This document shows, in pieces, positions 250-34,234 of a DNA stretch of 38,871 nucleotides; positions within the stretch are counted from its first letter, which is position 1, and every line of letters starts with the position of its first letter. This DNA is from an uncultured Megamonas sp. (GTDB taxonomy: Bacteria > Bacillota > Negativicutes > Selenomonadales > Selenomonadaceae). The stretch is from NCBI GenBank assembly GCA_900554895.1, contig USIX01000003.1, forward strand, positions 1-38,871. The letters are read 5' to 3'. The translations under genes were made by a program, and so were the position numbers. The notes beneath the pieces are model-generated. The model had not been told where the DNA came from, searched no databases, and was given only the letters and a program-made list of their open reading frames with translations.

Positions 250-265
250 CCCTCTTACTTTTTTA

Positions 266-294
266 TTGATAATATTCAAGGAAAAATCTATAAT
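266..294 (+). promoter_or_regulatory. sigma70-type promoter of the clpX-type gene
   Basis: TTGATA (266-271), a 17-base spacer and a perfect TATAAT (289-294). Transcription should start near 301, leaving a leader of about 67 bases before the ATG at 368. Confidence 0.75.
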
Positions 295-367
295 ATACAT
301 ATTGTGCAATTAAATTTCAATTATATGTCTTGAAATTTCAACTTTGCTATTGAAGGGATAGGATTAA

Positions 368-1687: not shown

Positions 1688-1691
1688 AAAT

Positions 1692-1722
1692 AAAACCAAG
1701 TACAATTGTACTTGGTTTTTTT
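1692..1722. terminator. bidirectional intrinsic terminator
   Basis: A perfect 28-base palindrome (1692-1719, half-site AAAACCAAGTACAA) ends in a T-run on the plus strand and has an A-run on its other side. It separates the convergent clpX-type gene (+) and the EAL gene (-) and can serve both. Confidence 0.9.
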
Positions 1723-1726
1723 ATTT

Positions 1727-3976
1727 TTATACATTTTTTTCCAAATAAGTTTCATATTCTTTTGCTGGTATCGGTCGGGCAAAATAATAACCCTGAATTA
1801 TATCACAATCATTATCCCGCAGAAATTCATATTGTTCTTTCGTTTCCACGCCTTCAGCTACAGTTTTCATATCAACCGTTTTTGCAATCTTAATGACATG
1901 CTGCACCATAGCTTTGCCTTTTATACTCATATCATCAATGAAACTTTTATCAATCTTCATTTCAGTAGCATTAATATCTCTAATCATACTTATTGAAGAA
2001 TATCCTGTGCCGAAATCATCAATCAAAACATCAAAACCGGCCTTTCGTATATTATCTACTATCTGTTCGCCGATTTTCCGTTTTGAAACAAGATTGCCTT
2101 CCGTTATCTCAAATTGTATATTTTCTGTAGCTAAATCATATTTATTTAATATCCTAACATATTCTTCAATAAAATTCGGTCTGTACAATCTATTGCGAGA
2201 AACATTTACCGACACCGGCAAAATCTTTAATCCCCTTTTTTTCCATTCACTTTGATGTCTGCATACCATTTCAAAAATATATTTATCAATGTCTATAATA
2301 CTGCCTACCTCTTCGGCTATAGGTATGAATTTGGCTGGCGATATGAATATTTTTCCGTTTTTTATCCATCTGATTAAAGCTTCGCTGCCTACCATCCGCT
2401 GCGTTTTGGCATCGTATTTAGGCTGATAATACACTTGAAATTCTTTTAAAGCCAACGCTTGCAGAATATCATCCATTATTTTTTTCTTCTCTATGAGAGC
2501 ATCTTTCATGCCATTGTAGTAAAAACTGTAAAAAGTATCATATTTATCTTTCACTATGCGTCTTGCCATCATTGCACAATTCTGCATATAATCAATAGAT
2601 TTTTCATCATCTTCAATAATGTATATCCCCATAGAAGCAATTATCCTGAATTTATCAATTTTTATAGTGGTTATTTTTTTTATATCTCTTACAATATTCT
2701 CCATCAGCATTACTAAATCTTTCTTTTCTTTAAATTCTACCACCATTAAAAAATTATCAGCATATGGTCTTGTTATAATACCATTTTTCACATTTTTCTG
2801 CAGTACCTTCCAAATGTCAGCAAGAATAATATTGCCTATTTCATAACCGAATATATCATTAATTAGTTTGAAATTATCTATATCAAATGAAATAAACGCT
2901 TTTTTAGTTGACGATATCTTCAACCAAGTCTCAACATCCAGGCAAAACTTTTCAAAAGAATATCCGCCTGTTACTTTATCTTTATATAAAATATTTTCTA
3001 ATTGACGTTTCTTCTTTCTTTCATCCAGAACGATATTTATAACGATTACCACAACCAGCATCAACAAAACAGCAGATAAAATATACGTATTGCGCATAAG
3101 CATATCATATCTCGTATCAATAACAGCTCTAGGAATAATAGTCAGCAGCGACATATCATTTATGCCTAAAGGTTGATAATATAAATACATCGGTTCATAA
3201 GCAGTAATTTTAACCAAGCCTGAGTTTCCTGCCAGCAAATCATTTTTAACCTCATCCAATACAGGTTTATTATCTGCATTAATTTCATCCAAATTAATAA
3301 ATACATTTTTACTGTCATTTTTTATTTCTATGGCATTTAAACCGGCAACAATTCTTTGTCCGTCTTTGTCAATTACTACAGAATATCCTGTTCCGTCAAA
3401 AAGAGTCAATGTCAATAATCTTTGCAGGATTTTAATATCATACGAAGCAAATAATACTCCTTTTATCTCATTATTGTCATTATATAACGGCCGACTGAAA
3501 ATCAAACTGTCTTTTCCGTCAATACCATCTTTATAAATTCGGACTATCGCCGTTTTTCCCTGCATTGCCTCATCAAAATAAGCCTTTATATTTTCCACGC
3601 TGACTGCCTGTTTACCTAGATTATCCATAATATAAATTTCTTTATTTGGATATACAATACCAATTCTCTTAAAATAATTATTTTTACATATTGACTTAAA
3701 GTGTTCCATTATTTTGGCAGAAGACATATCCTGCTCATCTTCAACAAAATGAGATATTTGAAACAAAGTCTCTTGTTTTTCTCTTAATTCCCGACTTATT
3801 GTCGTCTTATTAACCTGAGCTACTTCCGTCAGACGATTTAAAGACTCTTCCTTTAAATAATTTCCTAAAATATCCGAATATATCCAAAAGGCTGCCACCG
3901 TTACAACTACAATCATTAACGAGGAAAATATTTTCTTCCACGAAATCGTACTACTATTAGACTTTTTATTACCCAT
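1727..3976 (-). CDS. membrane sensor GGDEF-EAL protein, probable c-di-GMP phosphodiesterase
   Basis: About 749 residues. A transmembrane helix lies near the N-terminus, then an extracytoplasmic Cache-like sensor of about 250 residues, a second helix (about 295-320), a GGDEF domain and a C-terminal EAL domain. The GGDEF signature is degenerate (RPYADNF), so it should not make c-di-GMP. The EAL domain keeps its catalytic set: SEAL, SVNVS, EITEG, DDFGTGYSS, KIDKSF, AEGVE and the QGYYFARP tail. Hydrolysis of c-di-GMP to pGpG is therefore the expected activity. I chose the ATG at 3976 because CGAGGG lies about 8 bases before it. The in-frame ATG at 3994 is only 3 bases after the previous stop and has only a weak site. 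It follows a GGDEF cyclase gene by 21 bases, so synthesis and breakdown of the messenger are encoded as a pair at the end of the exopolysaccharide cluster. Confidence 0.9.
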   Translation of the reverse strand: MGNKKSNSSTISWKKIFSSLMIVVVTVAAFWIYSDILGNYLKEESLNRLTEVAQVNKTTISRELREKQETLFQISHFVEDEQDMSSAKIMEHFKSICKNNYFKRIGIVYPNKEIYIMDNLGKQAVSVENIKAYFDEAMQGKTAIVRIYKDGIDGKDSLIFSRPLYNDNNEIKGVLFASYDIKILQRLLTLTLFDGTGYSVVIDKDGQRIVAGLNAIEIKNDSKNVFINLDEINADNKPVLDEVKNDLLAGNSGLVKITAYEPMYLYYQPLGINDMSLLTIIPRAVIDTRYDMLMRNTYILSAVLLMLVVVIVINIVLDERKKKRQLENILYKDKVTGGYSFEKFCLDVETWLKISSTKKAFISFDIDNFKLINDIFGYEIGNIILADIWKVLQKNVKNGIITRPYADNFLMVVEFKEKKDLVMLMENIVRDIKKITTIKIDKFRIIASMGIYIIEDDEKSIDYMQNCAMMARRIVKDKYDTFYSFYYNGMKDALIEKKKIMDDILQALALKEFQVYYQPKYDAKTQRMVGSEALIRWIKNGKIFISPAKFIPIAEEVGSIIDIDKYIFEMVCRHQSEWKKRGLKILPVSVNVSRNRLYRPNFIEEYVRILNKYDLATENIQFEITEGNLVSKRKIGEQIVDNIRKAGFDVLIDDFGTGYSSISMIRDINATEMKIDKSFIDDMSIKGKAMVQHVIKIAKTVDMKTVAEGVETKEQYEFLRDNDCDIIQGYYFARPIPAKEYETYLEKNV

Positions 3977-3997
3977 AATTTTCCCTCGTTTCATTTA

Positions 3998-5035
3998 TTA
4001 TATCTCAAATTCAATCCTATTCCTGCCTCTGTGTTTAGCTCTGTACAACGCTGTATCCGCTTTTTGTATACCTTCATATATAATATTTTTATTGTCTGCA
4101 TCTGCTTTCTTTTTCAAATATGCTGTTCCCATGCTGCAGGTTATCTGTACAACTTTCCCCTGCTCCACTGGAATTTGCGAATTCTCAATCGTTTTTCTTA
4201 AATTCTCCAGTATCCTTTCTACTTCTTCAAAAACATATTGATACATCAACACAATAAATTCCTCCCCTCCATAACGGAAAACATATATTCCTTCATGCCT
4301 CTTTTCTAAATCTTTCAACACATCTCCTATAAATTTCAAAACTTTGTCACCACTTAAATGACCCAGATTATCATTTATTTTTTTGAAAAAATCTAAATCC
4401 ATCATTGTCAGCCATAAATTATCAGCAGACCGCCTCATTCTGTTCTGCATGATATTATTTATTTTATCAAAAAAACCTCTGCGATTTACTATACCTGTTA
4501 ATTCATCAACATATGCCAACTCCTTATAATATTCTTTCAAATAATTAATATTTTCCAGCCGCTTTGTCGATAATATTTCATTTTTTCTCTTTATGCAATC
4601 TCTCAATTCTAAAATGTTCGTATAATCTTGGTGATATCCGCAAATTTTATAAACGCCGTCGTTCTTTTCAACCACCTTGCCTCCGCAACGTACATTCCGT
4701 TTTCCCTTTCCGTCATGATGCCATATATAACATACCTCATCTGTTATACTTTTTATCGGTCTGTAATCAAACATAGCAATCATATTATTTATTGTTTTCT
4801 GTATATCTTTCAGATTATTTAAATCTATCCTTTTAAACCAATAATCATAAAACTGTTCCGGCGACAGGTTCCTACTCTGTTCAGATGTCAAACCTAATAT
4901 TCTTATCAATGTTTTATTACCGTAAAAACAATGAATGCCTTTTGTTTCACTATATTCCATTATCCAAATTCCTACATCCATTGAATCTAAAATTTCATAA
5001 ATATTTATATCGCTATTCTTTAAAAGCTTCTCCAT
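3998..5035 (-). CDS. PAS-GGDEF diguanylate cyclase
   Basis: 345 residues with no transmembrane segment. A PAS-like sensory region occupies about residues 10-145, then a short linker and a GGDEF domain (about 175-345) with the active signature RYGGEEF and the upstream metal and substrate residues DLDFFKKINDNLGH. It should condense two GTP into c-di-GMP. No RxxD inhibitory site is visible at the usual distance before GGEEF (the sequence there is RHEGIYVF), so product inhibition through an I-site is not expected. AAAGGAT lies about 11 bases before the ATG. The PilZ-containing synthase about 3 kb upstream in the same direction is a natural target for the messenger, but this link is inferred from position only. 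Confidence 0.9.
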   Translation of the reverse strand: MEKLLKNSDINIYEILDSMDVGIWIMEYSETKGIHCFYGNKTLIRILGLTSEQSRNLSPEQFYDYWFKRIDLNNLKDIQKTINNMIAMFDYRPIKSITDEVCYIWHHDGKGKRNVRCGGKVVEKNDGVYKICGYHQDYTNILELRDCIKRKNEILSTKRLENINYLKEYYKELAYVDELTGIVNRRGFFDKINNIMQNRMRRSADNLWLTMMDLDFFKKINDNLGHLSGDKVLKFIGDVLKDLEKRHEGIYVFRYGGEEFIVLMYQYVFEEVERILENLRKTIENSQIPVEQGKVVQITCSMGTAYLKKKADADNKNIIYEGIQKADTALYRAKHRGRNRIEFEI

Positions 5036-5061
5036 AACGTTTATATCCTTTCAGCCAAAAT

Positions 5062-5109
5062 AAAAGGACTATTTAAGATAGATTAAATCTAAACTAAAAC
5101 AGTCCTTTT
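5062..5109 (-). terminator. terminator-like hairpin between the GH18 and cyclase genes
   Basis: AAAAGGACT (5062-5070) pairs with AGTCCTTTT (5101-5109), with a smaller AGAT/ATCT stem inside. On the minus strand it follows the GH18 stop at 5139 by about 30 bases and is followed by TTTTATTTT. It should end or attenuate transcription of the polysaccharide genes before the cyclase/phosphodiesterase pair. Confidence 0.6.
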
Positions 5110-5138
5110 CCACTTGCATCATTCTTTCTTAATAAAAA

Positions 5139-6122
5139 TCAAAAATCATATACAGCTTCATTATCGCCTAACCGCCAGATAATAACATTTTCTATACCCA
5201 GCTCTTCTGCTTTATTTATCCAAGCAGACATTGTTTTTTTATCCGCATACCAGACCTTATGAGCTATTCCTTTTGCATCTTCATAACTAAAAAACATAGC
5301 GTCGCTGTCTGTTTTTCTCTCTGGTATTTTTTTATACTGTTTTGCTAAAGCGATTGCCTGTGTGGCAGAAATAAACTTCGGATTAGCTGAATCGCTCCAG
5401 ATACAACCGCCCGTGGAAAAAGCCACGCCTTTCTTCGGTGGCAGATACTGCATATTGTCTACAACTTTCTCAATAAAAGCAAAATCTGCCTTAGGACCGT
5501 CATTTTTGCTGTGCGTACCGTACAAATTGTACAGCATGACTATATAAATCGGTCCATGAGGAAAATTATACGCTTTAAAATCGACACTCGGTTCTAAAAT
5601 AATTCTGAGCTGTAAATTTTCTGCTTTAGCTTTATCATATAAAATTTTCACGAAATCCAAATATAAATCGGTTACTTCTTTATCACGGAAAACTTTTTCA
5701 TAATCCAAATCAATCCCCTTACAGCCTGCTTTTCTCGTCAAGGTGATTATTTCCTCAGCATGTTTTTCACGTTTCCGTTTGGAATTCAGCACATCCTTCA
5801 ATATTTCAGTATCTTTAAATATGACTTTATCTTTCTTTTTTATATCATTCACTACTGTAAAATATCTCTGTCTGGTAGGCTGCCTTTTTATTGCTTCCAA
5901 GAAATCATCCGCAATGAACAATTTCTTATCTTCGTCAAAATACGCAGCGAAAAAAGAAATATTATCATATCCGTACTGTGTTTTTTTCCATTCTTCAATA
6001 CCGTCATTTGCATCCCAATATACAATCCAGCCACCTACATTTATTTTACTTTTTTCCGCATTACTTACACTGAAAAGACTGCATATTAATATTAAAGCAA
6101 CTACTGATATTATTTTCTTCAT
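5139..6122 (-). CDS. secreted GH18-like glycoside hydrolase
   Basis: A 327-residue protein with a Sec signal peptide (about 1-22, cleavage after SNA). The rest looks like a single GH18-type TIM barrel. GIDLDYE contains the family's DxDxE core with the acid glutamate, and VIIWRLGDNE near the C-terminus resembles the last strand of YaaH/chitinase-like GH18 proteins. The first D of the usual DxxDxDxE motif is replaced by K. GH18 enzymes cleave beta-linked N-acetylhexosamine chains, so a role in trimming or releasing the polymer made by this cluster is likely. The substrate is unknown. Two ATGs are adjacent; the second (6122) has the better distance to AGAGGA. It is the last gene of the run before the hairpin at 5062. 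Confidence 0.8.
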   Translation of the reverse strand: MKKIISVVALILICSLFSVSNAEKSKINVGGWIVYWDANDGIEEWKKTQYGYDNISFFAAYFDEDKKLFIADDFLEAIKRQPTRQRYFTVVNDIKKKDKVIFKDTEILKDVLNSKRKREKHAEEIITLTRKAGCKGIDLDYEKVFRDKEVTDLYLDFVKILYDKAKAENLQLRIILEPSVDFKAYNFPHGPIYIVMLYNLYGTHSKNDGPKADFAFIEKVVDNMQYLPPKKGVAFSTGGCIWSDSANPKFISATQAIALAKQYKKIPERKTDSDAMFFSYEDAKGIAHKVWYADKKTMSAWINKAEELGIENVIIWRLGDNEAVYDF

Positions 6123-6141
6123 CATATTCCTCTTTCAAATA

Positions 6142-8004
6142 TCACAAGTGATGTACAAACCAATCAATAATGATATTTCCATATTCATTCACATTATATT
6201 TAATTTCTTCCCAACCGCTGTATTTAGACGTGAACAACTCCACATCAGAACCAAGTTCTTTAATAATCAAATCCTTGTAAACTGCATCATATACATCATC
6301 ATCCAAGTTGCGCTGTTCCCAACCGACACCGGTCCATGCGGAAGATAAGCAGATATCACCCCGTTCATTATTCTTTACTTCAACTTCAGCAATCTTTTTA
6401 TCCTCACAGAATAATCGCAGAATATTATCTTCCAGTTCTATAGATAATTTATAATCACCTTTTTCATTATTGCGGATTGTTGGTACATAAACCTCTGCTC
6501 CTTCAGCAATAGTTTTAGGTTCATCTTTTGTTTTTTCCTTCAAACGGTTTATATATACCTGACCTGTTCCTGTAGACGGTGCATATCGCGTAAAGGCTTC
6601 CAGCGCCGTTAATTCCGCATTATGCTTATCTTCGTCCACAGATATCGGCGCCTTACCATATACCTCATCTATGGAGATTTTAGCCAGCTCCGTTTTTTGT
6701 CCGCCGCTTATCTCATTTATAAAGAAATATGCTCCGCTGGCTTCTACGGCAATATAATTGCTCATATTTTTATCAGCACGCAGATAAATACTCTGTGTTC
6801 CCGCCTTATTTCCCATCAATTCTGTACTAATCTGCAAATTACGATAGCGTGAACTGTTTTTTAATCGTATTATCCCCTGATTTTTCGGCAAAGAAGTTAA
6901 AAATACTTTTTCTTCCTTAAATTCTGCAGCTCCTTTTTCCAATTCCCAAAAATTAAAGCGTTCTGCTTCTCCCGTATTGAATACAACATCTTTTTTTGTA
7001 TCATATTTTATTCTCATCAATAAATGATTTACCGGCCACCATGCCTGTGGCTGCATTCTAGTTAAATCGTAAATACTGCTATTTTGTACATTTAAACAAT
7101 AACCTTCACGATTAAAATTCATTTCAAACAGCTTTTTCAGCCAGTATTCATTGACTGCACTGACCTGTGCATTATTGCCGAAGCCGCTTGTATTGGCGTG
7201 CATCAGTACACTTACTTTAGGAGCATAACCCAAATCAGATTTATATACTTCATCTAATTTTTTATAATCGTAACTTATACGATTTCTCATACGGTCATAA
7301 CTTTCCTTTGGCACAAAATCCTTATCACGGATATAATCCATCAAATAATGATTATATTTTCTGCCTAAGTAAGGGGAAACCGTATTAAACATCAGCGGGT
7401 CCATTTCCCCTAAATAGTTATCGTAACGGTCAAACACATTAATATAAAACAACCTATAACCATTCGTACCGATTTCCCAATAATTATTTTTAACTAAATC
7501 CTTTAAGTCATCCGGCAAAAGAAACTTTGTATCTCCTCTGTCGAATTTTTCCGGATAAGTAAACATTGTCGCATGATAATTAAGATCTTTTATTATCGGC
7601 GTCGAAAAAATAGCCGTATCCCGCCGTCCATCTTCAAACATCAGATATAAAGCTCTTTCTGGAAGCTGTTTACCGTTATGATAAAACTCATAAATATCAT
7701 CTGTCGTTATTGTCTCATATCCTTGGTCCTTCAATGCCTGTAAATGCGCTTTCAGATTTTTTTCACTGATTAAACTCTGGCTTCCTTCCGTTTTCTGAAC
7801 GCCGAAATATGATATTGCAATAAAACCATTCTCTATCGGTGCTTGTTCTGTATACGGCATGTATGATTTTTCTAAAAGATAGGAAATCACAATAACAGCT
7901 ACAGCAACTAACAGTAAAGTAAATTGCAATATAGCACGTATCCTTTTTTTTCGATTTCGCTTTTTTGAATAATTCTCATCAAATAACACGTTAGGAGATT
8001 GCAT
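6142..8004 (-). CDS. membrane-anchored polysaccharide deacetylase-like protein with degenerate metal site
   Basis: 620 residues. A single N-terminal transmembrane helix (about 25-46) is followed by an extracytoplasmic NodB-like region (about 55-340) and a C-terminal domain (about 345-620) whose alternating strands suggest a beta-sandwich, possibly carbohydrate-binding. The NodB fold is recognised from the opening ISYFGV, the MFEDGRRDT segment in the place of TFDDG, and ATMFTYP after it. The second motif, normally H-S/T-x-x-H, reads EIGTNGYRL with no histidine, so metal-dependent deacetylation is unlikely. A binding or scaffolding role is my inference. Its ATG overlaps the synthase stop codon by one base (TAATG), which indicates translational coupling to the PilZ-GT2 synthase. 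Confidence 0.7.
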   Translation of the reverse strand: MQSPNVLFDENYSKKRNRKKRIRAILQFTLLLVAVAVIVISYLLEKSYMPYTEQAPIENGFIAISYFGVQKTEGSQSLISEKNLKAHLQALKDQGYETITTDDIYEFYHNGKQLPERALYLMFEDGRRDTAIFSTPIIKDLNYHATMFTYPEKFDRGDTKFLLPDDLKDLVKNNYWEIGTNGYRLFYINVFDRYDNYLGEMDPLMFNTVSPYLGRKYNHYLMDYIRDKDFVPKESYDRMRNRISYDYKKLDEVYKSDLGYAPKVSVLMHANTSGFGNNAQVSAVNEYWLKKLFEMNFNREGYCLNVQNSSIYDLTRMQPQAWWPVNHLLMRIKYDTKKDVVFNTGEAERFNFWELEKGAAEFKEEKVFLTSLPKNQGIIRLKNSSRYRNLQISTELMGNKAGTQSIYLRADKNMSNYIAVEASGAYFFINEISGGQKTELAKISIDEVYGKAPISVDEDKHNAELTALEAFTRYAPSTGTGQVYINRLKEKTKDEPKTIAEGAEVYVPTIRNNEKGDYKLSIELEDNILRLFCEDKKIAEVEVKNNERGDICLSSAWTGVGWEQRNLDDDVYDAVYKDLIIKELGSDVELFTSKYSGWEEIKYNVNEYGNIIIDWFVHHL

Positions 8005-10067
8005 TAGACATTCCCCTCTTTCTTTGCCACTTTCTTGTTGCCTTTCAGCAATTCAGCCAAATCGGCAGTTGTCATACGCGTCCCCCATGTAGACTTCCAG
8101 AAAGTGACCCATGCCACCGGCATCTGCCACAAAAGCACCGCTTCATAATACAAACAGAACCATACACCATACAGCCAGGTTGAGCTGCGCCGCAAAAATA
8201 ATTGCGCAAAACTCATCATAAGTGCCATCATCATTATCCCAATGAGAAAAGTGAGCGGAAATACACGATGCGTAAGCGGTATATAAATCAGATTATATAT
8301 CACGATAACAGGTGCAATAATAGGTACTAAAAGTCCCATATAAAAAGACAGTGCCATAAATGGTTCTTTCTTCCACATAAAAGTTGCTGCAATAAATGAT
8401 TCTCTAAGCCACGAACGTTTCCAACGCATCTGCTGTCTTAAAAAAACTTTATACGTATTCGGTACAATAGTGGAACAAACAGCGGTATCCTGATAATCAG
8501 TGCGATGATGGCGCAGAATAAAATTTGTCATTGCTCTATCATCGCCGAAAGTTGCCTTCTGTCCCAAAAACCTCTGATTAAGCCACGCTTCGCTGTATTT
8601 AAGTACCAAATCCTTACGATAGCAGGCAAGCGGACCGGACAGACATGTTACAGCATTGAACAATCCTTCTGCCGCTTTCAATACACGAAATGCAATATAA
8701 TATCTGACTGACTGCATTTTCGTCAAATTATTTGTAAACGTGTTGGCAACATCAGTTCTGCCAGATACGCCGCCGACTTTTTTATCCTGAAAAGGTTGAA
8801 CAAGATTTCTAATGGCAAACGGGTCTAAAAAACTGTCAGAGTCTACAAATACTAAAAGTTCATGTTTTGCCAACTTGGCTCCCGCCGCTAAAGCTTCACG
8901 CTTGCCGGCATTTTTCGGTTGCACATGAAAATGCACCCGATTTCTGGCATCATATCCTTCTTCCTTTTCCAATGTCAGCAAAAGCTCTTCTATTTTTTCT
9001 CTTGAACGGTCATTAGAACAATCATCAATGACTAATACCTCTAATTTATCCAATGGATAGTCCTGGTTTAAACAGCTTACTATTGTCCGCTTTATCCATT
9101 TTTCTTCATTAAAACATGGTATTATGATGCTTACACCCGGCGTATAATTCGGATTAATAGGTGTTGGACGGTAAAATGCACCAAATAAATATCTTGACAA
9201 CAAAAAAGTAGCCGCCAAAATACTGTAGAAATACAATATTTTATTAAACTCAAAATACAATACACTTTCAGCTCGCAACAAAATAATAAATAGCGATACA
9301 AAAAACAAAAATATTGCTGCCACTGAAAGCATATACACCTGTCGCTTACGATAAACATACTGCGACAACAATTCATCAAACTGGAAACCACAGTTTATAC
9401 TGCCGTCTTTATCCATTAAAGAACGAACCCATCTGGCTCTGATTTTTTTCACTTTCATTTCATAGCCTTCCGGCATTGTTCCTGGTTTTATTTCAAAACT
9501 CAACTCTATTAAAGAAGCATTTTCCAATAGATTTCTATATTCACTTGGTACTTTGCATAACATTCCTGAACTGGATAAATTCTGACTTGTTCCTTTTATC
9601 GTAAAGCGTCTTTTTTTCTCGTCTATTACCCGTATTGTTACAGGATAATTTACGATGTAGCGTTTTCCGGTTTCCTCCTTCTCTTTACTCTTATCATAAT
9701 TATTTACGATATTATCTTTGTAAATAATACCTCTACGGTCTATATTGGTTCTTGTATGATTTTTATCTGGAACATTAGGTAGTATTCGTCTGTCTCCAAC
9801 CGGTTCTAACAAAATATCTTCTTCTGTTTTTATTACTTTGGCAATAGATTTTTGTACTTCTTCACTTTCTACCACAGTTTGAATGCCGTTTACATCCATC
9901 TTTTTAATATTTTTATAATCAATTTCTTTATTTACTACATTTTCTTCTGGATATTCTACTACTTCTTTTTTATTTATATCTTGTGCGGTATCTATACTTT
10001 TTTGGATATTCTGTTTCTGCAGCATTGACCTAATATTGCCAGAATCTAATTTTATTTTATTACTCAT
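8004..10067 (-). CDS. PilZ-GT2 fusion: c-di-GMP-responsive processive polysaccharide synthase
   Basis: 687 residues. The first 130 or so are charged and probably disordered, with two DRR clusters (92-94, 110-112). A PilZ-like domain follows (about 133-240), with KRYIVNYPV at the start and NLSSSG (163-168) in place of DxSxxG. The RxxxR spacing is not canonical. Two transmembrane helices (about 246-295) precede a processive GT2 domain. This has IDDCSND (348-354), the DSD metal site (409-411), FGDD (507-510) as the base region and QxxRW (545-549). More helices follow. The family polymerises sugar nucleotides and threads the chain through the inner membrane. BcsA has PilZ at the C-terminus and Alg44 keeps it on a separate protein, so an N-terminal fusion is a distinct arrangement. 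GAGAGGA precedes the ATG. The polymer is not known. Confidence 0.88.
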   Translation of the reverse strand: MSNKIKLDSGNIRSMLQKQNIQKSIDTAQDINKKEVVEYPEENVVNKEIDYKNIKKMDVNGIQTVVESEEVQKSIAKVIKTEEDILLEPVGDRRILPNVPDKNHTRTNIDRRGIIYKDNIVNNYDKSKEKEETGKRYIVNYPVTIRVIDEKKRRFTIKGTSQNLSSSGMLCKVPSEYRNLLENASLIELSFEIKPGTMPEGYEMKVKKIRARWVRSLMDKDGSINCGFQFDELLSQYVYRKRQVYMLSVAAIFLFFVSLFIILLRAESVLYFEFNKILYFYSILAATFLLSRYLFGAFYRPTPINPNYTPGVSIIIPCFNEEKWIKRTIVSCLNQDYPLDKLEVLVIDDCSNDRSREKIEELLLTLEKEEGYDARNRVHFHVQPKNAGKREALAAGAKLAKHELLVFVDSDSFLDPFAIRNLVQPFQDKKVGGVSGRTDVANTFTNNLTKMQSVRYYIAFRVLKAAEGLFNAVTCLSGPLACYRKDLVLKYSEAWLNQRFLGQKATFGDDRAMTNFILRHHRTDYQDTAVCSTIVPNTYKVFLRQQMRWKRSWLRESFIAATFMWKKEPFMALSFYMGLLVPIIAPVIVIYNLIYIPLTHRVFPLTFLIGIMMMALMMSFAQLFLRRSSTWLYGVWFCLYYEAVLLWQMPVAWVTFWKSTWGTRMTTADLAELLKGNKKVAKKEGNV

Positions 10068-10081
10068 TTAGATTTCCTCTC

Positions 10082-12775
10082 TCAATATCCATATCCAGTA
10101 TTATGATATAAACTGTTCTCATTTCCTATCGAATGTCTTGTCTGCTCTCCCCTAAATTCAGCATTACCGTCTTTTCTACTGTAATTTGACTGATCATAAT
10201 TATTTTTCAGATATGCCGACAGCGGTAAAGCAATAAATTTGGCAGGGTCAGTATCCGCTCTCTGCTCATTTATCGTCAGCAGTAAATCCAGTGCTATCGG
10301 TGTAAAAAACGATTCATCACTCATATGCATTACAAGCACTGCACCGTTGATAACTTTTCCATTTCTATCGTAAATGCCTTCTTTAATGGCATTTACCATG
10401 CTATCTAAATCCGGCTGTTCATAATCATGCGTACTGTATGAACCGGAAACAATATATTCATAACCTGTATCATATAAAGCTCTAAATCCTGCTTTACTTA
10501 TCGCTAAAGTCGGCGGTCTGTAATACGGCTTAAATGCTGATGTTCCGTCCGCATGTCTGATATCACCGATTGTATACGACAACTTATTATATGCCGTTCC
10601 GTAATCTACTAAATACGATTGGTATGCTTCATCCGAATTATATTCCACCGTGTCCATCGCTCTGTGAAATTCACTATGGGACGATATATCATGACCTTCC
10701 AATGCAACTGCCCGAAGTAGATTGGGATTTCGCATAACATTGTGCGTCAATATAAAAAATGTAGCCTTTACATTATGTTTACGCAGTACATATAAAAGAT
10801 GATTAATTGCTGCATCCGTCCCCCAATCATCAAAAGTAAAAAATATTACCGGCTTATCCGTATGAATTCGCCCGTCTGTATCAAGATAGGAAGCTTCCTC
10901 TACTTTAAAACCGTGTGCTTCTGCCATTGTAACATCATAATTTCCGATATAACGTTGCTTTAAATAATCTACAAAGCTTAAACCTCTATATTCCAAACTG
11001 TTACTTAAATTAGGCGAACTGAAATCCAATTCTGTATTTATATGATACAATGCGCTTTTATTTGCCAAAACTTCGCCAATCGGTTTAACTGCATAAGCAG
11101 AATTATTATTCGGATTTATCTTGGCATCATCATAGAAAGAATTATATGCTATATTATCCACTTTATGCCGTTTTACCAAATCCATTACATCAATAACAAG
11201 ATTATCGTCATTATAAAAATCCAAGCGAAAGTAAATTATCCAGCCCCTACCTACGGAATATACAGCCTTTCCGAACTGTTCCGTCATTACCGCCTGTGCA
11301 GACGTATAATTCTGATGCCTTGAACTTACCATATTATAAGTCGGTGACACCATTTGACAATTCATAGACGAAACTGCCTCCCGCGTTTCATCTGATATCT
11401 GTCCCCACGGCTGCATTACTAAATTAGTCTGTACTCCCATCGTAGCCAGCTGCGTCTGCATATAGTCAATCTGTTTGCAAACGGTGAAAAAATTGCTGTC
11501 TTTCAAAGAACGCAGTCCTATTGCTACTTCATTACCACTGTTTATAATATCCTGTATCATTTGAGGATTAGCTCTCAATTCATTTTCCATAACGAAAAAT
11601 GTACCCTTTATGTTGTTTTTTCCCAAATAATCTAAAGTTTTATAAACGACATTCGGCTTGGTAAGACCGGCAAAAGCATAGCAAACAGCCTGCTCTGTTG
11701 TATAAATCATTCTGGGATTATCCGCCAATCGGTGATTATTTTGTACCCGCAATTGACCATAATCCGCAGAAGCTGCTAAAGCTTTATTAAATAAAATATT
11801 GTCTGCTTTATCTGCTAAATAATCAAAAAGCATAGCAACTTTTCCACTGGAATTTGCCGGCGGTGATGACGGTTTTAAAATATCAATACGTTCAATTTCC
11901 CGCAAATCCTTTATTTCTACCGTTTGAATACCTTTTTGCTGTATCGCTCTAAATAAACGTTCAACTACAGCAACAACATCCTGATGAATGATAATATCTT
12001 TCTGGTCTTCTTTCAATGCCAAATTAGGCTGTTTATCCTCAGCCGGTTTATCGTCTATCTTCCCTTCCTGATACGTAATAACATTTGTCGGCGTACCAAT
12101 TCTTAAAGATACAATGGAACCCAGCGGTATTGAATTAATAAAATTAACAGCATCCGTATCATTTTTAATAGCATCCTTATTTATAAATACATCCGTTTTT
12201 ACAGCACTTTTTAAATTGGCAGCAGCTGCTATTTTTAACAGTGGTACAACAAAAGAAGTATCAGGTGCTTTAAACAGTTCCGGCTCTGTACCCGTTAAAA
12301 CGGTTAAAGCTTTCTGAGTACGCAAAAGCTGCTCTAAAGCTGCATCCTGCGGCAATTTGTCTAAAAACTGCACGCCTGTGTAAGTATAATTTCCTATTGT
12401 TATGTTTTTTTCATATAATTTTAAAACACTTTCCTTTTCACCAGCTGCATTACTGCCTTCTACAAAAAATGTTACTTTTATATTGTATCTTTCAATTAAA
12501 TCAAGCAATTTATCTGTTGTAGTAGGATCAGGTAATCCATCAAAAGTCAACGCAATAACATTTTTACTTGGATCTCTTGTATACACGGTAGCCGGTTCAA
12601 TGTCAGAATTTAATTTCGTCTGTGCCTGTATCAATTCCGTATCTACGTTATATTCATTGGACAAATCAGGAATATCTTCATAAGCGGCTATTTTATAATC
12701 CAAATACCAGAACTTATACAATGCCAATGTTATTGCCACTATTATTATTAAAAATATCCATTTCGTCTTTGGCAT
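10082..12775 (-). CDS. triple NodB-domain polysaccharide deacetylase (one intact, two degenerate domains)
   Basis: 897 residues with an N-terminal membrane anchor (about 5-25). Three NodB-type units follow in tandem. Unit 1 (about 70-295) has TFDGLP (77-82) for TFDDGP and no HxxxH. Unit 2 (about 355-545) has CYAFAGL at the same place, then GTFFVMENE, and no metal histidines. Unit 3 (about 640-840) is complete, with TFDDWGTD (647-654), HSEFH (700-704), the catalytic-groove YRPP (752-755) and LVMHMS (H817). Only the third should remove N- or O-acyl groups from a polysaccharide. The first two may bind the polymer or hold a complex together (inference). Gaps of 14-16 bases on both sides place it in an operon with the SLH barrel and the synthase. 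Confidence 0.88.
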   Translation of the reverse strand: MPKTKWIFLIIIVAITLALYKFWYLDYKIAAYEDIPDLSNEYNVDTELIQAQTKLNSDIEPATVYTRDPSKNVIALTFDGLPDPTTTDKLLDLIERYNIKVTFFVEGSNAAGEKESVLKLYEKNITIGNYTYTGVQFLDKLPQDAALEQLLRTQKALTVLTGTEPELFKAPDTSFVVPLLKIAAAANLKSAVKTDVFINKDAIKNDTDAVNFINSIPLGSIVSLRIGTPTNVITYQEGKIDDKPAEDKQPNLALKEDQKDIIIHQDVVAVVERLFRAIQQKGIQTVEIKDLREIERIDILKPSSPPANSSGKVAMLFDYLADKADNILFNKALAASADYGQLRVQNNHRLADNPRMIYTTEQAVCYAFAGLTKPNVVYKTLDYLGKNNIKGTFFVMENELRANPQMIQDIINSGNEVAIGLRSLKDSNFFTVCKQIDYMQTQLATMGVQTNLVMQPWGQISDETREAVSSMNCQMVSPTYNMVSSRHQNYTSAQAVMTEQFGKAVYSVGRGWIIYFRLDFYNDDNLVIDVMDLVKRHKVDNIAYNSFYDDAKINPNNNSAYAVKPIGEVLANKSALYHINTELDFSSPNLSNSLEYRGLSFVDYLKQRYIGNYDVTMAEAHGFKVEEASYLDTDGRIHTDKPVIFFTFDDWGTDAAINHLLYVLRKHNVKATFFILTHNVMRNPNLLRAVALEGHDISSHSEFHRAMDTVEYNSDEAYQSYLVDYGTAYNKLSYTIGDIRHADGTSAFKPYYRPPTLAISKAGFRALYDTGYEYIVSGSYSTHDYEQPDLDSMVNAIKEGIYDRNGKVINGAVLVMHMSDESFFTPIALDLLLTINEQRADTDPAKFIALPLSAYLKNNYDQSNYSRKDGNAEFRGEQTRHSIGNENSLYHNTGYGY

Positions 12776-12791
12776 TTATTCACACTCCCGT

Positions 12792-15164
12792 CTAATCAAA
12801 AAACCAACTCAACTGGGCCCAAGCCGTCTTACCTTTTTCTCCTGTTGTCTTATCCTTTAAATCGTAATATTCAAGACTCAATACTAAATCTTCAGCTAAA
12901 GTATAATTAAACATGGCTCCCCAGCCAGAAAAGCCGTCCATATAACTGCCAACACCATTCATCGTATGATTTATATACGTGTTTCCAGCCATATTATAAT
13001 ATTTCAAAATAAAATCATAACTATTTGGCACCCATGCAAAATGTTGCTTATATCTTGCAGTCAGCACATAGCCGTCTTTGGCTCCGCTACCGTCGGCAAC
13101 ACTAGAATTTAAATACATTCCGCCCAAAGTCCAGTCATCTACATAATAATTCATACCTAACGCGGTAATAGTTACAGGATCATTATAATTATCCCAATGA
13201 TAAATACCAGCCAAATAATTATAATTTTTGTTTTGCGTCAGAGCTTCTAAATAATATGCCGTTTCTGTATCATTTACTTTGCCGTAACCTACTGTATAAT
13301 TAATATTAGAATTAGGATCAGCTGACACTTTTATTCCCTCAAAATCGCCGTCCAGTACATTACCATCACCTAAATAAGCATACGTTTTTCCTAAATCTAT
13401 AGTGAAAGGAATATCCCACCATGTCTTTTTCCCTTGAAGATAAATTCTGCTTAATTCTATATCACCGTTATAATCTTCTTTTAATGAATTATCATTATCC
13501 AAAAAATTATATTCACTTTCCAATAAAGCATTGATTGTCCAATCATCAGCTATGGCTTTTTGTCCAAAAATACGTGCATAAACTCTGCTGTCACTCCAAT
13601 CATACCGAGGAGAACCGCCATTTTTAGAAGCGCTATAACGTATTTCGCCTTCATATTTCCAATCCCATTCAGTTCGGTAATTAACACTGGTATCTGTAAC
13701 TTCGGATATGATATTATATCCCAACGACCTTACTTCAGTCGCAAACTCTTTCATTAAAACATTAATATCATCCGATACAAATCTGAACCTATTATTATCT
13801 GATGCACTGCCGTCCACAGCCATATGTCTGGCTCTGATTTTATATAAATTATAACTTCTAGCTGTTAAAATAGCTGCTTCCCTGCGAGTCAAACTGTTAA
13901 GATTAAAATCTTCATCCGGATACAATAGTCCTTCAGATGACAGCTTATCAAAATATTCATATGTCCATATTGGTGCAGGACTGTTAAATCTTCCTAATAT
14001 CGTTAATTTATTTAAATCCAATACTTTATCTTCGTTATTATTCATTACCGCTTCATTTCGTTCGATTTTTATTCCATTATTCTGATTAACTCTAGATATA
14101 TTCCTGTTTCTATTAATATATTCAGATGATATATATTTTTTCTGATCCTGTTGTAAACCATAATTTAAATTATTTTTTTCTCCATTCATGAATGAATTTT
14201 GTCTTTCATCAGCAATGTTCTCAATCCTGTTTTCTATCTCATCCGTTACTAAAATTTTTTCGTTGGATGTTAAAACAGCATCTCCGCGCTTACTGTCCAT
14301 ATTTATATTTCTATTTTCATTAATATTGCTATTTGCAGGTACCGTCCTATTATCTGTGCTAAACAATTCCGCCCCATCTTTTTTATTAGTAACATTTAGC
14401 GTATTATTTTCTGATGAAGCCATATTCTGTACATCATTTATTTGTACTGTTTTACTGGTATTAAGATTTTTGCTTTCTGCTGTTGAATAACTTGATACCC
14501 GCCCTGTCTTAAAACCATTTTCATCATAATTGAACAATACATTTTTCCGCTCATTATTTATTTCTGTATCTCTATTTTCAGCAATATATCTCTCTTTTGG
14601 TTTCGAAACGCTTTGTTCTATTTTCTCTTTATTATCCGGTAAATTATTTTGTATTAATTCTTTTTGGTGTATCTGTCTTGATGTTATCTGTATTGGTTCA
14701 CTCTTTTTTTCTCCTGCAATATCAGAATTATCCTGGATACTATTATTCGGTTTAACTGTTTCAGCATCCGACACCGTATTAAAATCATTTGCAAATTCCT
14801 GAGTATTTTCCGAAAATATCCGGCTCTGTTTTTCAAGTTGTCTGTTTTCATTAAAACTTTCTATATTATCTATATCAATTTGCGGATTATCATCTATTTG
14901 TGCAGTATTCAGCTGTTCATTATATCTGTTCAGTTCTTCCGTCAATTGACTTAATCTTGCATTTATGTCGGCAATTTCCTGCGATATCTGTCTAATTCTC
15001 TCCATTTGCCGCTGTTGAGTATTATCACTTACAACAACATTCTGTTTTTCAGAGTAATCATTTTGATTTTCACTGGCGTAAGCAGTGGTACTAATGCCTA
15101 AATTGATAATTACGCCTGTTCCCAAGGCGCATAAGATATTTCTGGCTAACAACTTCCCGTCCAA
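12792..15164 (-). CDS. SLH-domain outer-membrane beta-barrel protein, putative polymer export channel
   Basis: About 790 residues. The order is a signal peptide ending in TAYA, a short coiled coil of about 35 residues, an Asn/Lys/Glu-rich low-complexity linker of about 280 residues, an SLH-like domain (WTYEYFDKLSSEGLL then LTRREAAILTAR), and a C-terminal barrel of about 280 residues ending in the aromatic SWFFD. SLH domains in Negativicutes outer-membrane proteins bind the peptidoglycan-linked polymer, which would tie this barrel to the wall. Export of the cluster's polysaccharide is inferred from its place before the deacetylase and synthase genes. The start is uncertain. TTG at 15164 follows a G7 tract by 7 bases and leaves a normal signal peptide. 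TTG at 15203 would overlap the dehydrogenase gene and has a poorly placed site. No in-frame ATG occurs before codon 50. Confidence 0.78.
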   Translation of the reverse strand: MDGKLLARNILCALGTGVIINLGISTTAYASENQNDYSEKQNVVVSDNTQQRQMERIRQISQEIADINARLSQLTEELNRYNEQLNTAQIDDNPQIDIDNIESFNENRQLEKQSRIFSENTQEFANDFNTVSDAETVKPNNSIQDNSDIAGEKKSEPIQITSRQIHQKELIQNNLPDNKEKIEQSVSKPKERYIAENRDTEINNERKNVLFNYDENGFKTGRVSSYSTAESKNLNTSKTVQINDVQNMASSENNTLNVTNKKDGAELFSTDNRTVPANSNINENRNINMDSKRGDAVLTSNEKILVTDEIENRIENIADERQNSFMNGEKNNLNYGLQQDQKKYISSEYINRNRNISRVNQNNGIKIERNEAVMNNNEDKVLDLNKLTILGRFNSPAPIWTYEYFDKLSSEGLLYPDEDFNLNSLTRREAAILTARSYNLYKIRARHMAVDGSASDNNRFRFVSDDINVLMKEFATEVRSLGYNIISEVTDTSVNYRTEWDWKYEGEIRYSASKNGGSPRYDWSDSRVYARIFGQKAIADDWTINALLESEYNFLDNDNSLKEDYNGDIELSRIYLQGKKTWWDIPFTIDLGKTYAYLGDGNVLDGDFEGIKVSADPNSNINYTVGYGKVNDTETAYYLEALTQNKNYNYLAGIYHWDNYNDPVTITALGMNYYVDDWTLGGMYLNSSVADGSGAKDGYVLTARYKQHFAWVPNSYDFILKYYNMAGNTYINHTMNGVGSYMDGFSGWGAMFNYTLAEDLVLSLEYYDLKDKTTGEKGKTAWAQLSWFFD

Positions 15165-15183
15165 TTTCCAACCCCCCCTATAT

Positions 15184-16503
15184 TTATAATCCCCAATATG
15201 CAAAATCCTTGCTTTCTATATCTTCCTGTTTAAATATATTTTTTATATCAATAACTACTGATTTATTTTGTTTGAATGAATTAGCTGTGAATTTTTCTAT
15301 ATCTTCTATTGTGAGTTGTGTAAATTCATCATGTGCCACGGCAAAAACAAGACAATCAGCATCATTTATTTCCTTATAATCTATTAAATCTATGTCAAAT
15401 AATTTTTTTACTAGCTTCTTATCTGCATAAGGATCTGCCACTTTCAAATTGATACCGTATTCTCTTAATCTGGCTATGATATCTATTACGCGGGAATTTC
15501 TTATATCTGGACAGTTTTCTTTAAAAGTAACGCCCAAAATATAAATATTGTCGTTTTTTATACTGTGTTTTTCCTGAATTAATTTCTGCAAAACAGCATC
15601 GACTATAAAATTACTCATACTATTATTAATCTTGCGGGCAAGTGATACCATCTCACTACTGCTGTTGCTGATTGAAGCCTTGTATATCAGATAATACGGG
15701 TCTACACCAATGCAGTGCCCGCCTACGAGTCCTGGTCTGAACCCTAAAGCATTCCACTTTGTATTCATCGCATTTATGACCTGCATAGTGGACAATCCCA
15801 TTTTTGTAAAAATCATTGCCACTTCATTCATAAAAGCTATATTTATATCACGCTGCGTATTTTCCAATAATTTTGCCGCTTCCGCCACTCTTATTGACTC
15901 GGCCAAATATATATTATCAACCACTAAGCTGTACATCTTGCTAATTTCTGCTCTCACTTCATTATTCATACCTGAAATGATTTTGCAGATATTTTTCAAA
16001 GTATGCACCTTATCACCGGGATTTACCCTTTCTGGCGAATAACCTATATAAAATTGTTCACCACATTTTACGCCAGAATATTTTTCAATTTCCTTTAAAC
16101 ATATTTCTTCCGTTACTCCCGGATATACAGTGGACTCATATACTATAATTGCCTGTTTAGATAGATTTCTTCCTATGGTCTGACTGGCGGATATTACCGG
16201 CTGTAAATCCGGCGTATGGTCTTTTTTTATTGGTGTCGGTACAGCCACAATAATAAAAGAAGCTTTCTGTAAATAAGTTTCATCATTCGTAAATAAAATT
16301 TCTGCGTCTTTTAAACCTTCATTACCTACTTCCATTGTTGGGTCTATACCTTGCTTTAAGAGATTTATTTTTTTCTCACTGATATCAAAACCTATTAAAT
16401 TTACATGCTTAGATAAAGCGACTGCCAGAGGCAATCCTACGTAACCTAGACCAACAACGGCGGCACAGCCATTTCTATTTATCAATTTGTTTACTGTATT
16501 CAC
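15184..16503 (-). CDS. UDP-N-acetylhexosamine 6-dehydrogenase (TviB/WbpO-like)
   Basis: About 439 residues. The Rossmann start VVGLGYVGLPLA, the segments YESTVYPGVTEE, YSPERVNPGDK and ENTQRDINIAFMNE, the catalytic-cysteine loop GGHCIGVDPYY and the C-terminal GVTFKENCPDIRNS are all typical of the UDP-GalNAc/GlcNAc 6-dehydrogenases of the Vi-antigen TviB and WbpO type rather than UDP-glucose dehydrogenases. The enzyme oxidises C6 of the sugar nucleotide with two NAD+ to give a UDP-amino-uronic acid. It is the first gene of the second polysaccharide operon, so it probably supplies the precursor of that polymer. I chose GTG at 16503, 7 bases after GGTGGG. GTG at 16515 lies inside that site. The exact sugar cannot be decided from sequence. 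Confidence 0.88.
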   Translation of the reverse strand: MNTVNKLINRNGCAAVVGLGYVGLPLAVALSKHVNLIGFDISEKKINLLKQGIDPTMEVGNEGLKDAEILFTNDETYLQKASFIIVAVPTPIKKDHTPDLQPVISASQTIGRNLSKQAIIVYESTVYPGVTEEICLKEIEKYSGVKCGEQFYIGYSPERVNPGDKVHTLKNICKIISGMNNEVRAEISKMYSLVVDNIYLAESIRVAEAAKLLENTQRDINIAFMNEVAMIFTKMGLSTMQVINAMNTKWNALGFRPGLVGGHCIGVDPYYLIYKASISNSSSEMVSLARKINNSMSNFIVDAVLQKLIQEKHSIKNDNIYILGVTFKENCPDIRNSRVIDIIARLREYGINLKVADPYADKKLVKKLFDIDLIDYKEINDADCLVFAVAHDEFTQLTIEDIEKFTANSFKQNKSVVIDIKNIFKQEDIESKDFAYWGL

Positions 16504-16530
16504 TATTTTACCCACCCCTTTATATGTACA

Positions 16531-16577
16531 AAAAGTCCTCTACCCCCCCCAAAAAAAATGAGAGATAGAGGACTTTT
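16531..16577 (-). promoter_or_regulatory. leader hairpin (attenuator-like) before the dehydrogenase gene
   Basis: AAAAGTCCTCTA (16531-16542) pairs perfectly with TAGAGGACTTTT (16566-16577). In the transcript the hairpin ends in TTTTT about 27 bases before the start codon, so it resembles an intrinsic terminator inside the leader. The loop holds T8 followed by G8. The same arms occur before pgaA at 23260-23309. The transcript from the promoter at 16671-16699 must pass through it. Confidence 0.75.
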
Positions 16578-16644
16578 ATTATAACATCCGTAATTAAATT
16601 TTTTAAAACAGATTATATACATTATGACAACTTACTCATTCAGC

Positions 16645-16661
16645 TTAAACTAATAGTTTAA
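16645..16661. promoter_or_regulatory. candidate operator (17-bp palindrome)
   Basis: TTAAACTA, one base, TAGTTTAA: a perfect inverted repeat just downstream of the predicted transcription start of the second polysaccharide operon. The position fits a repressor site. The regulator is not identified and none lies next to it. Confidence 0.5.
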
Positions 16662-16670
16662 ACTATTTAC

Positions 16671-16699
16671 ATTTTAACACAAAATTTTTATCCTGTTAA
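16671..16699 (-). promoter_or_regulatory. promoter of the second polysaccharide operon
   Basis: On the minus strand TTAACA (16699-16694), a 17-base spacer and TAAAAT (16676-16671), each one base from consensus. The predicted start near 16664 gives a leader of about 160 bases containing the palindrome at 16645 and the hairpin at 16531. Confidence 0.65.
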
Positions 16700-16726
16700 T
16701 AACCACATTACAAAATAACATTAATT

Positions 16727-17260
16727 TCAGCTTTTCAAAGTGCTGCCGTTTCCTATTCTGCAATCATAAAATCCCTCTTTATCAATTTTATTAGGCATTA
16801 TGCCAGATACTTCCCGTATCTTATTTTTTTCATTAAAAGCGATTTGCAGTATATCGCATTTCTGTAACAGTTCATACTGTTTATCATTTATAGTATATAA
16901 TTCCTTCACTTGTTGTTTTGTCCATTCTGGAAAAGATTTTCTTCTATCCTTTCCGCCGAACACAAGTTTATTATAACCAATCCAAACAGTAATGATTATA
17001 AAGACAGCTATCCCGTACAGCAATAAACTGCTTAAAATATTCAAGGGAAAATATTCTCTTATATCATAATCCTGAGACAACAAATATATATGCCAGAACA
17101 CATCTCGAAAGCAGTACAGCACCAACAGCCAGACTACTATAGTTGCCACCACTTGTAAGATCAAATATTTATGCGGATAATTCCTTTTTACCAAATAGCT
17201 CTGGCGATAATTCTTTTTTGTCTCATTATACGTTCCATAATCAAACTTCCTATTATCCAT
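16727..17260 (-). CDS. pgaD: PgaD-like accessory subunit of the poly-GlcNAc synthase
   Basis: 177 residues with two transmembrane helices (about 31-52 and 76-97) followed by YNKLVFGGKDRR, which matches the conserved YN...F...RR segment of PgaD, and a cytoplasmic tail of about 75 residues. In E. coli PgaD pairs with PgaC, and c-di-GMP binding stabilises the complex and turns on poly-beta-1,6-GlcNAc synthesis. The tail here is longer than in short PgaD proteins. GGTGGA precedes the ATG, and the gene begins 15 bases after pgaC. Sequence conservation in this family is low, so the call leans on gene order and topology as well as the motif. Confidence 0.85.
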   Translation of the reverse strand: MDNRKFDYGTYNETKKNYRQSYLVKRNYPHKYLILQVVATIVVWLLVLYCFRDVFWHIYLLSQDYDIREYFPLNILSSLLLYGIAVFIIITVWIGYNKLVFGGKDRRKSFPEWTKQQVKELYTINDKQYELLQKCDILQIAFNEKNKIREVSGIMPNKIDKEGFYDCRIGNGSTLKS

Positions 17261-18526: not shown

Positions 18527-18540
18527 GGCACTCACCCTTA

Positions 18541-34077: not shown

Positions 34078-34228
34078 ACAAGCAGAGTAAATATCCGTGC
34101 GTTAAGTGTCCGGCAGACGGGGAGTTGCTGCCTGAACGAAAAGATTTTCTTGCGGTACGGATATTGCATCCCGCTGCTGCATACAGGGAACAGCTTCCTA
34201 CTATGTGGCAACGCCAGTTTTAGGAGGT
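34078..34228 (+). ncRNA. tetrahydrofolate (THF) riboswitch with ribosome-binding-site sequestering platform
   Basis: The aptamer (about 34078-34179) carries the class signatures GAGTA, GCGTTAAGTG, AACGAA and ATTGCATCCCGCT. P1 is AGCAG (34081-34085) with CTGCT (34174-34178), and ATATCCGT pairs with ACGGATAT. In the platform, CTTCCTA (34194-34200) pairs with TAGGAGG (34221-34227), the folT ribosome-binding site, over 7 bp with one wobble. GGAA (34187-34190) can instead take TTCC (34195-34198). The aptamer match is from sequence; translational control is inferred from these competing pairs. Confidence 0.9.
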
Positions 34229-34234
34229 ATGTTT

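Follow-up and report, generated by a model that had tools for sequence, protein, structure and literature searches.

Contig USIX01000003.1 of an uncultured Megamonas sp. (38,871 nucleotides, analyzed over its whole length and called the window below) carries an operon that probably represents a conserved, synthase-dependent exopolysaccharide system of Bacillota under the control of cyclic di-GMP (c-di-GMP). Its central enzyme would be a relative of the class I hyaluronan synthases (HAS) fused to a PilZ domain, and the mechanism we favor with it is as follows. A dehydrogenase of the N-acetylhexosamine (HexNAc) type would provide a UDP-amino-uronate. At high c-di-GMP, the synthase, a glycosyltransferase of family 2 (GT2) with an N-terminal PilZ domain, would polymerize UDP-HexNAc and the uronate and extrude the chain through a membrane channel of its own. 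Outside the membrane, a membrane-anchored, PgaB-like pseudo-deacetylase with a CBM66-like domain would probably guide the chain, the third domain of a triple NodB protein would strip some of the N-acetyl groups, and a GH18 enzyme would trim or clear the product. In diderms, an OmpM-derived barrel, sometimes fused to tetratricopeptide repeats (TPRs), would serve as the polymer exit. In Sporomusaceae-type genomes, a c-di-GMP-I riboswitch would additionally turn the operon on.

A preliminary description of the window had proposed to look for the same gene order in other Negativicutes, and the core of the operon indeed recurs in and beyond the Negativicutes. A scan of a genome collection with an alignment of the synthase yielded 317 stretches encoding a relative, of which the best 80 loci were analyzed. 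Genes were counted by tblastn, and loci with too little contig were omitted from each count (those retained are referred to as loci with room). In nearly all loci with room the four core genes follow in the order NodB protein, PilZ-GT2 synthase, PgaB-like pseudo-deacetylase and GH18 protein. NodB stands in this order in 47 of 47 loci of the Negativicutes group and 30 of 32 others, the pseudo-deacetylase in 47/47 and 32/33, and the GH18 gene in 45/45 and 31/31. The order is broken in L075, a short contig with NodB downstream of the synthase, and in L078, where the NodB match is merged with dehydrogenase sequence. At about 7324-9948 of the latter locus, from Tissierella pigra, one open reading frame (ORF) combines part of a UDP-sugar dehydrogenase with NodB sequence, either a fusion or a frame error. 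NodB is split in many loci of Selenomonadaceae and Veillonellaceae, with one piece before the synthase and a longer piece after GH18. A second pair of barrel and NodB genes follows the operon in Pectinatus frisingensis (L003, 14777-17883) and in a Veillonellaceae metagenome-assembled genome (L061, 15553-19800).

Whole genomes were searched with profiles of the synthase (E 1e-100) and the pseudo-deacetylase (E 1e-30). Among 250 genomes from the class that includes Pectinatus, both profiles match the same 56, and in 55 of these the two matches are at most 1 kb apart on one contig; in the other genome (G237) they lie on separate contigs. Among 291 genomes from the class that includes Clostridium, they match the same 2. 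The system also extends to the Bacilli, since a Paenibacillus plasmid carries the same neighbors (synthase 52% identical, pseudo-deacetylase 33.5%, GH18 31%, deacetylase present); here, 1.3 kb without a listed gene separate the deacetylase from the synthase. The core order is thus not confined to Negativicutes but occurs also in Clostridia and on a Paenibacillus plasmid, and the gene set is a conserved system, not a chance neighborhood. In the synthase tree, three Pectinatus loci are the nearest rows to the window, with 72% identity at best. A search of the open-access literature, with subscription papers and preprints outside its scope, found no description of the system. It is apparently an undescribed variant of the synthase-dependent exopolysaccharide systems, and its distinctness from known systems, already claimed in the preliminary description, held up: the genes co-occur elsewhere, and among the characterized systems searched none matched gene for gene.

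The strongest clue to the activity of the operon is the synthase. Against solved structures, its profile ranks Xenopus XlHAS1 (3.2e-43) and the Chlorella virus HAS (CvHAS) first, far above cellulose synthase. Residues reported to hold the hyaluronan chain or the nucleotide in HAS (PMC11750622) were mapped onto the synthase through the profile alignment to XlHAS1 and CvHAS. Identical in all 81 synthases are the DxD motif (D409, D411), R455, Y456, F460 and C475, together with the G-P-L of SGPL, GDDR, QQxRWxxS and WGTR, so that the class I HAS motifs GDDR, QxxRW and the WGT gating loop are present in every one. The invariant R455 is the equivalent of the XlHAS1 channel arginine R287, which lies near the glucuronic acid (GlcA). 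Models for other synthase types score below their cut-offs, at 118.5 versus 422.3 bits for PgaC and, for a BcsA-type catalytic subunit, 34.5 versus 699.1 bits with the CelA model. Two points weaken the comparison. The second channel arginine, R296 of XlHAS1, is replaced by K464 in 81/81 synthases, and because NodC has Arg and PgaC Lys at this site, it neither discriminates nor supports HAS. The AlphaFold model of the whole synthase is poor (predicted local distance difference test, pLDDT, of 57); a fold comparison of this model lists HAS first and carries little weight, and the geometry of the PilZ pocket cannot be judged from it. By its motifs, the synthase groups with HAS and not with NodC or PgaC, which does not by itself prove the product; for class I HAS that product is a polymer of alternating GlcNAc and GlcA.

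The most serious competing view of the product is a beta-1,4-GlcNAc homopolymer, similar to chitin or chitosan, made as by NodC together with NodB, while the dehydrogenase serves another pathway. NodC is in fact the curated model that scores best with the synthase (182 bits, against a TIGR04242 cut-off of 550), GH18 and NodB enzymes suit GlcNAc chains, and a local dehydrogenase is missing from 10 of 22 loci with room outside the Negativicutes group and from 2 of 44 within it. However, three NodCs, like the PgaC of the window, have Glu at the site of R455 and differ from the synthase at SGPL, GDDR..TN and WGTR; the NodCs read CGPC, GEDR..TI and WLSR there. Moreover, 42 of the 44 Negativicutes-group loci with room (and 12/22 of the others) have a dehydrogenase homolog inside the cluster. 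We consider a pure GlcNAc chain unlikely, though well worth keeping in mind.

The dehydrogenase itself argues for a uronate in the polymer, as the preliminary description had suggested. Its best equivalog model is TviB (390.8 bits, below the cut-off of 592), and its first matches in the PDB are UDP-ManNAcA, Cap5O and NDP-GalNAcA dehydrogenases, which rank above UDP-glucose dehydrogenases. Since the enzyme looks to be of the HexNAc type, an amino-uronate is favored: this suggests a UDP-amino-uronate donor, and a partly de-N-acetylated HexNAc/amino-uronate polymer is our best guess. An attempt to use the absence of the dehydrogenase to exclude a uronate failed. Some NDP-sugar dehydrogenase was present in 23 of 23 genomes (21 without the local gene in the first ORF table and two controls with one). 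As 13 of 14 control genomes have one too, this is a weak result. In two Faecalibacterium genomes the family member is local.

Upstream of the core, the presence of an outer-membrane barrel depends on the taxonomic group. Among loci with room, all 45 of the Negativicutes group have the barrel gene ahead of the core, compared with none of the 19 others; the 45 include L048, whose title reads Acholeplasmataceae and which we assigned to that group ourselves. The profile of the barrel family matches the SLH-barrel protein 8bym, which we take to be OmpM1 of Veillonella, over its SLH part as well as its barrel (E 5.7e-12). Four Sporomusa homologs are 1084-1134 residues long and carry TPRs ahead of the barrel, and exporters such as PgaA, BcsC and AlgK/AlgE are typically built from TPRs plus a barrel. 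The barrel may thus be an exit pore, possibly also in contact with the wall, and it is the fusion to TPRs in Sporomusa that favors the pore. Some results temper this assignment. The distribution of the barrel follows phylogeny and is therefore close to a single contrast. The barrel protein of the window alone has no significant PDB match and no Pfam match of its own, and Pfam SLH was not among the 25 of 42 families listed at E 0.1 for 34 members of the barrel family.

It could also be that the barrel is only an OmpM-type tether between wall and outer membrane and not an exit, in line with the match of the family profile to 8bym in both parts. We doubt this, given the TPRs of the four Sporomusa homologs and the 19 of 19 other loci with room in which the core does without a barrel. 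For the same reasons wall tethering is optional, and the wall-tethered polymer of the preliminary description was not borne out as a general trait. The N-terminus of the barrel protein (14724-15203) resembles that of the PgaA-like protein encoded upstream in the window (22846-23235; 33% identity over 135 residues), perhaps as a targeting or wall-contact module shared by two exporters. Further upstream, beyond the pga genes, lies a gene for an ornithine/lysine-type decarboxylase (24867-26129, - strand). A link between this enzyme and the SLH-like barrel is possible, because the ligand of SLH domains in Selenomonas is cadaverine on peptidoglycan.

The preliminary description had wired the system to c-di-GMP in two ways, by the PilZ domain of the synthase and by the cyclase and phosphodiesterase genes that follow the operon. 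The PilZ domain stood. PF07238 matches the window synthase modestly (24.1 bits versus a cut-off of 22.5), the (D/N)xSxxG motif is kept in 81/81 synthases, and an Arg-rich (DRR) segment further upstream (R93, R94, R106, R111, R112) is conserved in 80/81. PilZ domains carry an RxxxR motif of canonical spacing, and here the family departs from the rule: R136 is present in 81/81, while position 132 is Arg in only 1/81 and Lys in 35/81. The domain is thus a putative c-di-GMP receptor. The cyclase and phosphodiesterase, in contrast, turned out to be incidental. A GGDEF or EAL match was found by tblastn in the fetched flanks of 14 of the 80 loci, 12 of them near the core (GGDEF in 11/80, EAL in 4/80). 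The ORF table also gave 14 loci, a set that differs in part. Both genes were accordingly rejected as conserved members of the system.

A second connection to c-di-GMP, absent from the preliminary description, was found in 13 relatives. These carry a c-di-GMP-I riboswitch (RF01051, 59.2-84.1 bits versus a gathering score of 35) at the head of the operon, 40-193 nt ahead of the start of its first ORF (L004, L006, L007, L008, L010, L011, L012, L015, L018, L021, L022, L023 and L024). A model built from 8 of the 13 sites was run over the 1.5 Mb of the loci and the window (E up to 0.5, default filters) and returned exactly those 13 sites and no other; the Rfam search covered 32 of the 80 loci. Each of the 13 aptamers overlaps at its 3' end with the 5' arm of a terminator-like hairpin that has a T run behind it, an arrangement scored without a shuffled control. 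Because of this overlap the riboswitch is a predicted ON switch, in which binding of the ligand should block termination, and in Sporomusaceae-type genomes it would thereby switch the operon on. The reach of this control is restricted by several negatives: no riboswitch was found by the model scan in 67/80 loci, including the similar locus L020 (checked with Rfam as well), and neither Rfam nor the model scan found a c-di-GMP riboswitch in the window, the gap between pgaD and the dehydrogenase included. In Sporomusa ovata, a RAGATH-18 RNA lies upstream of the operon region (L023, 352-412, + strand).

We also inspected the modifying enzymes for their catalytic residues. The triple NodB protein of the preliminary description does contain three NodB stretches, but two of the three domains are degenerate. 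In the motif columns of 45 full-length rows, only domain 3 has intact TFDDWG and HxxxH motifs; domains 1 and 2 are without the full pair, with L033 keeping TFDD in domain 1. The third domain is thus a predicted de-N-acetylase, and deacetylation can come from one domain, not three. The PgaB-like protein lacks an intact TFDDG-type/HxxxH pair and was rightly described as a degenerate deacetylase. An intact NodB motif pair is present near the synthase in 72/80 loci, and 5 of the other 8 are short of room or cut by a contig end. The motifs were not found in L029 and in two Faecalibacterium loci, all with room, and these cases do not fit a deacetylated product. In both Faecalibacterium loci (L073 and L076) NodB has lost the catalytic motifs and the rest of the operon is kept. 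In the GH18 protein, D141 and E143 are conserved in 72/72 aligned rows, and position 139 is Glu in 67/72 and Asp in 5/72, so that most members read DGIEIDYE. It is a probable polymer-trimming enzyme.

The same enzymes could be taken to belong to an operon for remodeling of the cell wall or spore cortex, in which peptidoglycan would be the substrate of deacetylase and GH18 and a wall polymer the product of the GT2 enzyme. The NodB domains do score best with the PdaB and PgdA models (below cut-off), and among solved structures the GH18 protein matches YdhD and spore cortex-lytic enzymes best. However, the locus is present in Selenomonas, Pectinatus, Megasphaera and Faecalibacterium, which are not known to form spores. 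The close association with a HAS-type synthase, and with the barrel in Negativicutes, is also hard to reconcile with wall remodeling, as is the c-di-GMP riboswitch in 13 loci, and this makes such a role quite improbable.

The pga genes lie upstream of the operon in the window, as the preliminary description had stated, but they are not conserved neighbors. Only 1 of the 80 loci matches pgaB and pgaC strongly (372 and 396 bits, respectively), and linkage to pga was rejected as a trait of the system. In this sole case, L026 from Selenomonas ruminantium, pgaC, pgaB and a further ORF (250-5390, - strand) lie divergently beside the operon. The other PgaC/PgaB matches reach at most 131 bits and are mostly the synthase and pseudo-deacetylase themselves; the remainder are weak matches, to a GT2 in L050 and to PgaB-like ORFs in L021 and L023. 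That the operon is a second system for poly-N-acetylglucosamine (PNAG), a diverged pga duplicate, as the PgaB-like N-terminal domain of the pseudo-deacetylase, the adjoining pga genes and the alike N-termini of the PgaA-like and barrel proteins might suggest, is very improbable in view of the low PgaC score of the synthase, its HAS-type residues where PgaC differs, the single locus with pga beside it, and the lack of a PgaD match and of a PgaB hydrolase domain in the cluster. The preliminary description had likewise set the system apart from Pga, and a separate PgaC is encoded in the window.

Taken further, the operon could define a new class of c-di-GMP-gated machines in Bacillota. In such a machine, a PilZ-fused HAS relative would make a zwitterionic polymer of HexNAc and amino-uronic acid, one active NodB domain would de-N-acetylate it, and c-di-GMP would exert control at two levels, riboswitch and PilZ. 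The same core would operate in cells with one membrane, and in cells with two it would be served by an OmpM-derived barrel, converted at some loci to a TPR exporter. We put this complete picture forward tentatively and would not be surprised if parts of it failed. If the c-di-GMP-controlled operon proposed at the outset is real, the short list of known synthase-dependent systems would gain a matrix polysaccharide that is widespread in Negativicutes and Clostridia, including gut, rumen and acetogenic species, and a HAS-type enzyme would come under the control of c-di-GMP. Loci that have the outer-membrane barrel and loci that lack it share nearly the same core, so the family offers a natural test of exporter gain or loss at a synthase. 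The riboswitch arrangement makes the control by c-di-GMP directly testable in vitro.

Table 1. Features of the operon and its surroundings in the window
Feature	Coordinates	Strand	Evidence or remark
PgaA-like TPR protein	20461-23235	-	57.2 bits vs PgaA cut-off 366.65: TPR/PgaA-like only
PgaB	18541-20448	-	525.2 bits vs cut-off 321.9
PgaC	17276-18544	-	518.8 bits vs cut-off 422.3
PgaD	16727-17260	-	Pfam 27.8 bits vs cut-off 27
pgaD-dehydrogenase gap (211 bases), candidate operon promoter region	16516-16726	-	weak promoter-like matches
UDP-sugar 6-dehydrogenase, UDP-HexNAc type (TviB/WecC-like)	15184-16515	-	TIGR03026 385.5 bits vs cut-off 189.8
OmpM-like outer-membrane beta-barrel protein with SLH-like segment	12792-15203	-	family profile matches 8bym/8bz2
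Triple NodB protein	10082-12775	-	three PF01522 stretches; domain 3 intact, about residues 639-833
PilZ-GT2 membrane synthase	8004-10067	-	PilZ match; motifs DSD, SGPL, GDDR, QQMRW, WGTR
Membrane-anchored PgaB-like pseudo-deacetylase, C-terminal CBM66-like beta-sandwich	6142-8004	-	PF01522 20.8 bits, below cut-off 23.1
GH18 hydrolase, YdhD/SleL-like	5139-6125	-	conserved D141 and E143
GGDEF diguanylate cyclase (GGEEF motif), co-directional	3998-5035	-	local accessory
dCache sensor + GGDEF + EAL phosphodiesterase	1727-3994	-	local accessory

All genes named in the preliminary description are present and point in one direction (Table 1, in order of transcription), with the correction that the dehydrogenase ORF starts at 16515. 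From the dehydrogenase through GH18 the genes overlap or are less than 20 bases apart, and the GGDEF gene follows after about 100 bases. With this spacing, the genes from the dehydrogenase to GGDEF likely form one transcript. Promoter-like matches in the gap behind pgaD lie at 16699-16671 and 16607-16578; they carry little weight, since 80 such matches were found in the whole region versus 67.0 (sd 7.9) in shuffles. Elsewhere in the window, a tetrahydrofolate (THF) riboswitch (RF01831, 93.5 bits; 34081-34178, + strand) precedes a + strand ORF at 34205-34726.

Several known systems share parts of this organization. Pga/Ica systems for PNAG likewise pair a GT2 enzyme with a PgaB-fold protein and, in some members, a TPR/barrel protein. 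Here, the synthase is not PgaC, the PgaB-like protein is degenerate and carries a CBM66-like instead of a GH domain, and pga is separately present; neither PgaD nor the hydrolase domain of PgaB appears in the Pfam and NCBIfam lists of the cluster proteins. The same lists contain no Pel or Alg family, although no search aimed at Pel or Alg was made. To our knowledge, the NfrBA system of E. coli (the N4 receptor) has no NodB/GH18 core. It resembles the operon in having a c-di-GMP-controlled GT2 enzyme with an outer-membrane partner, and it differs by an MshEN domain where PilZ is found here (PMC8669469). In Clostridia, ccsZABHI similarly combines a PilZ-GT2 protein (the BcsA-like CcsA) with a glycoside hydrolase (the GH5 enzyme CcsZ) and adds MBOAT/DHHW acetylation genes, while an operon of C. 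difficile, predicted to make a ManNAc-rich polymer, has a GT2/deacetylase/GH113/WecB set. The sections of PMC7710045 that describe these two mention no GH18, triple NodB protein or HAS-type synthase.

The barrel family shares the SLH-like segment and the barrel with the SLH-barrel protein 8bym, but has a long spacer or TPRs before the barrel and is linked to a polysaccharide synthase. The NodB/NodC pathway also places a NodC-like GT2 enzyme beside a NodB-fold deacetylase. It differs in that NodC departs at four HAS-type sites, and the nodA and nodI genes that flank nodBC have no counterpart among the cluster proteins. With the class I HAS, XlHAS1 and the Chlorella virus enzyme, the synthase shares the GT2 core, the DxD motif, the R/Y/F acceptor collar and the Cys, as well as SGPL/GGPL, GDDR..TN, QQxRWxxS and the gating-loop WGT(R/S). 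It differs from them by the N-terminal PilZ domain with the DRR segment and by Lys in place of R296, and its gene adjoins those for deacetylases, GH18, the barrel and a dehydrogenase that looks to be of the HexNAc type, not the UDP-glucose type.

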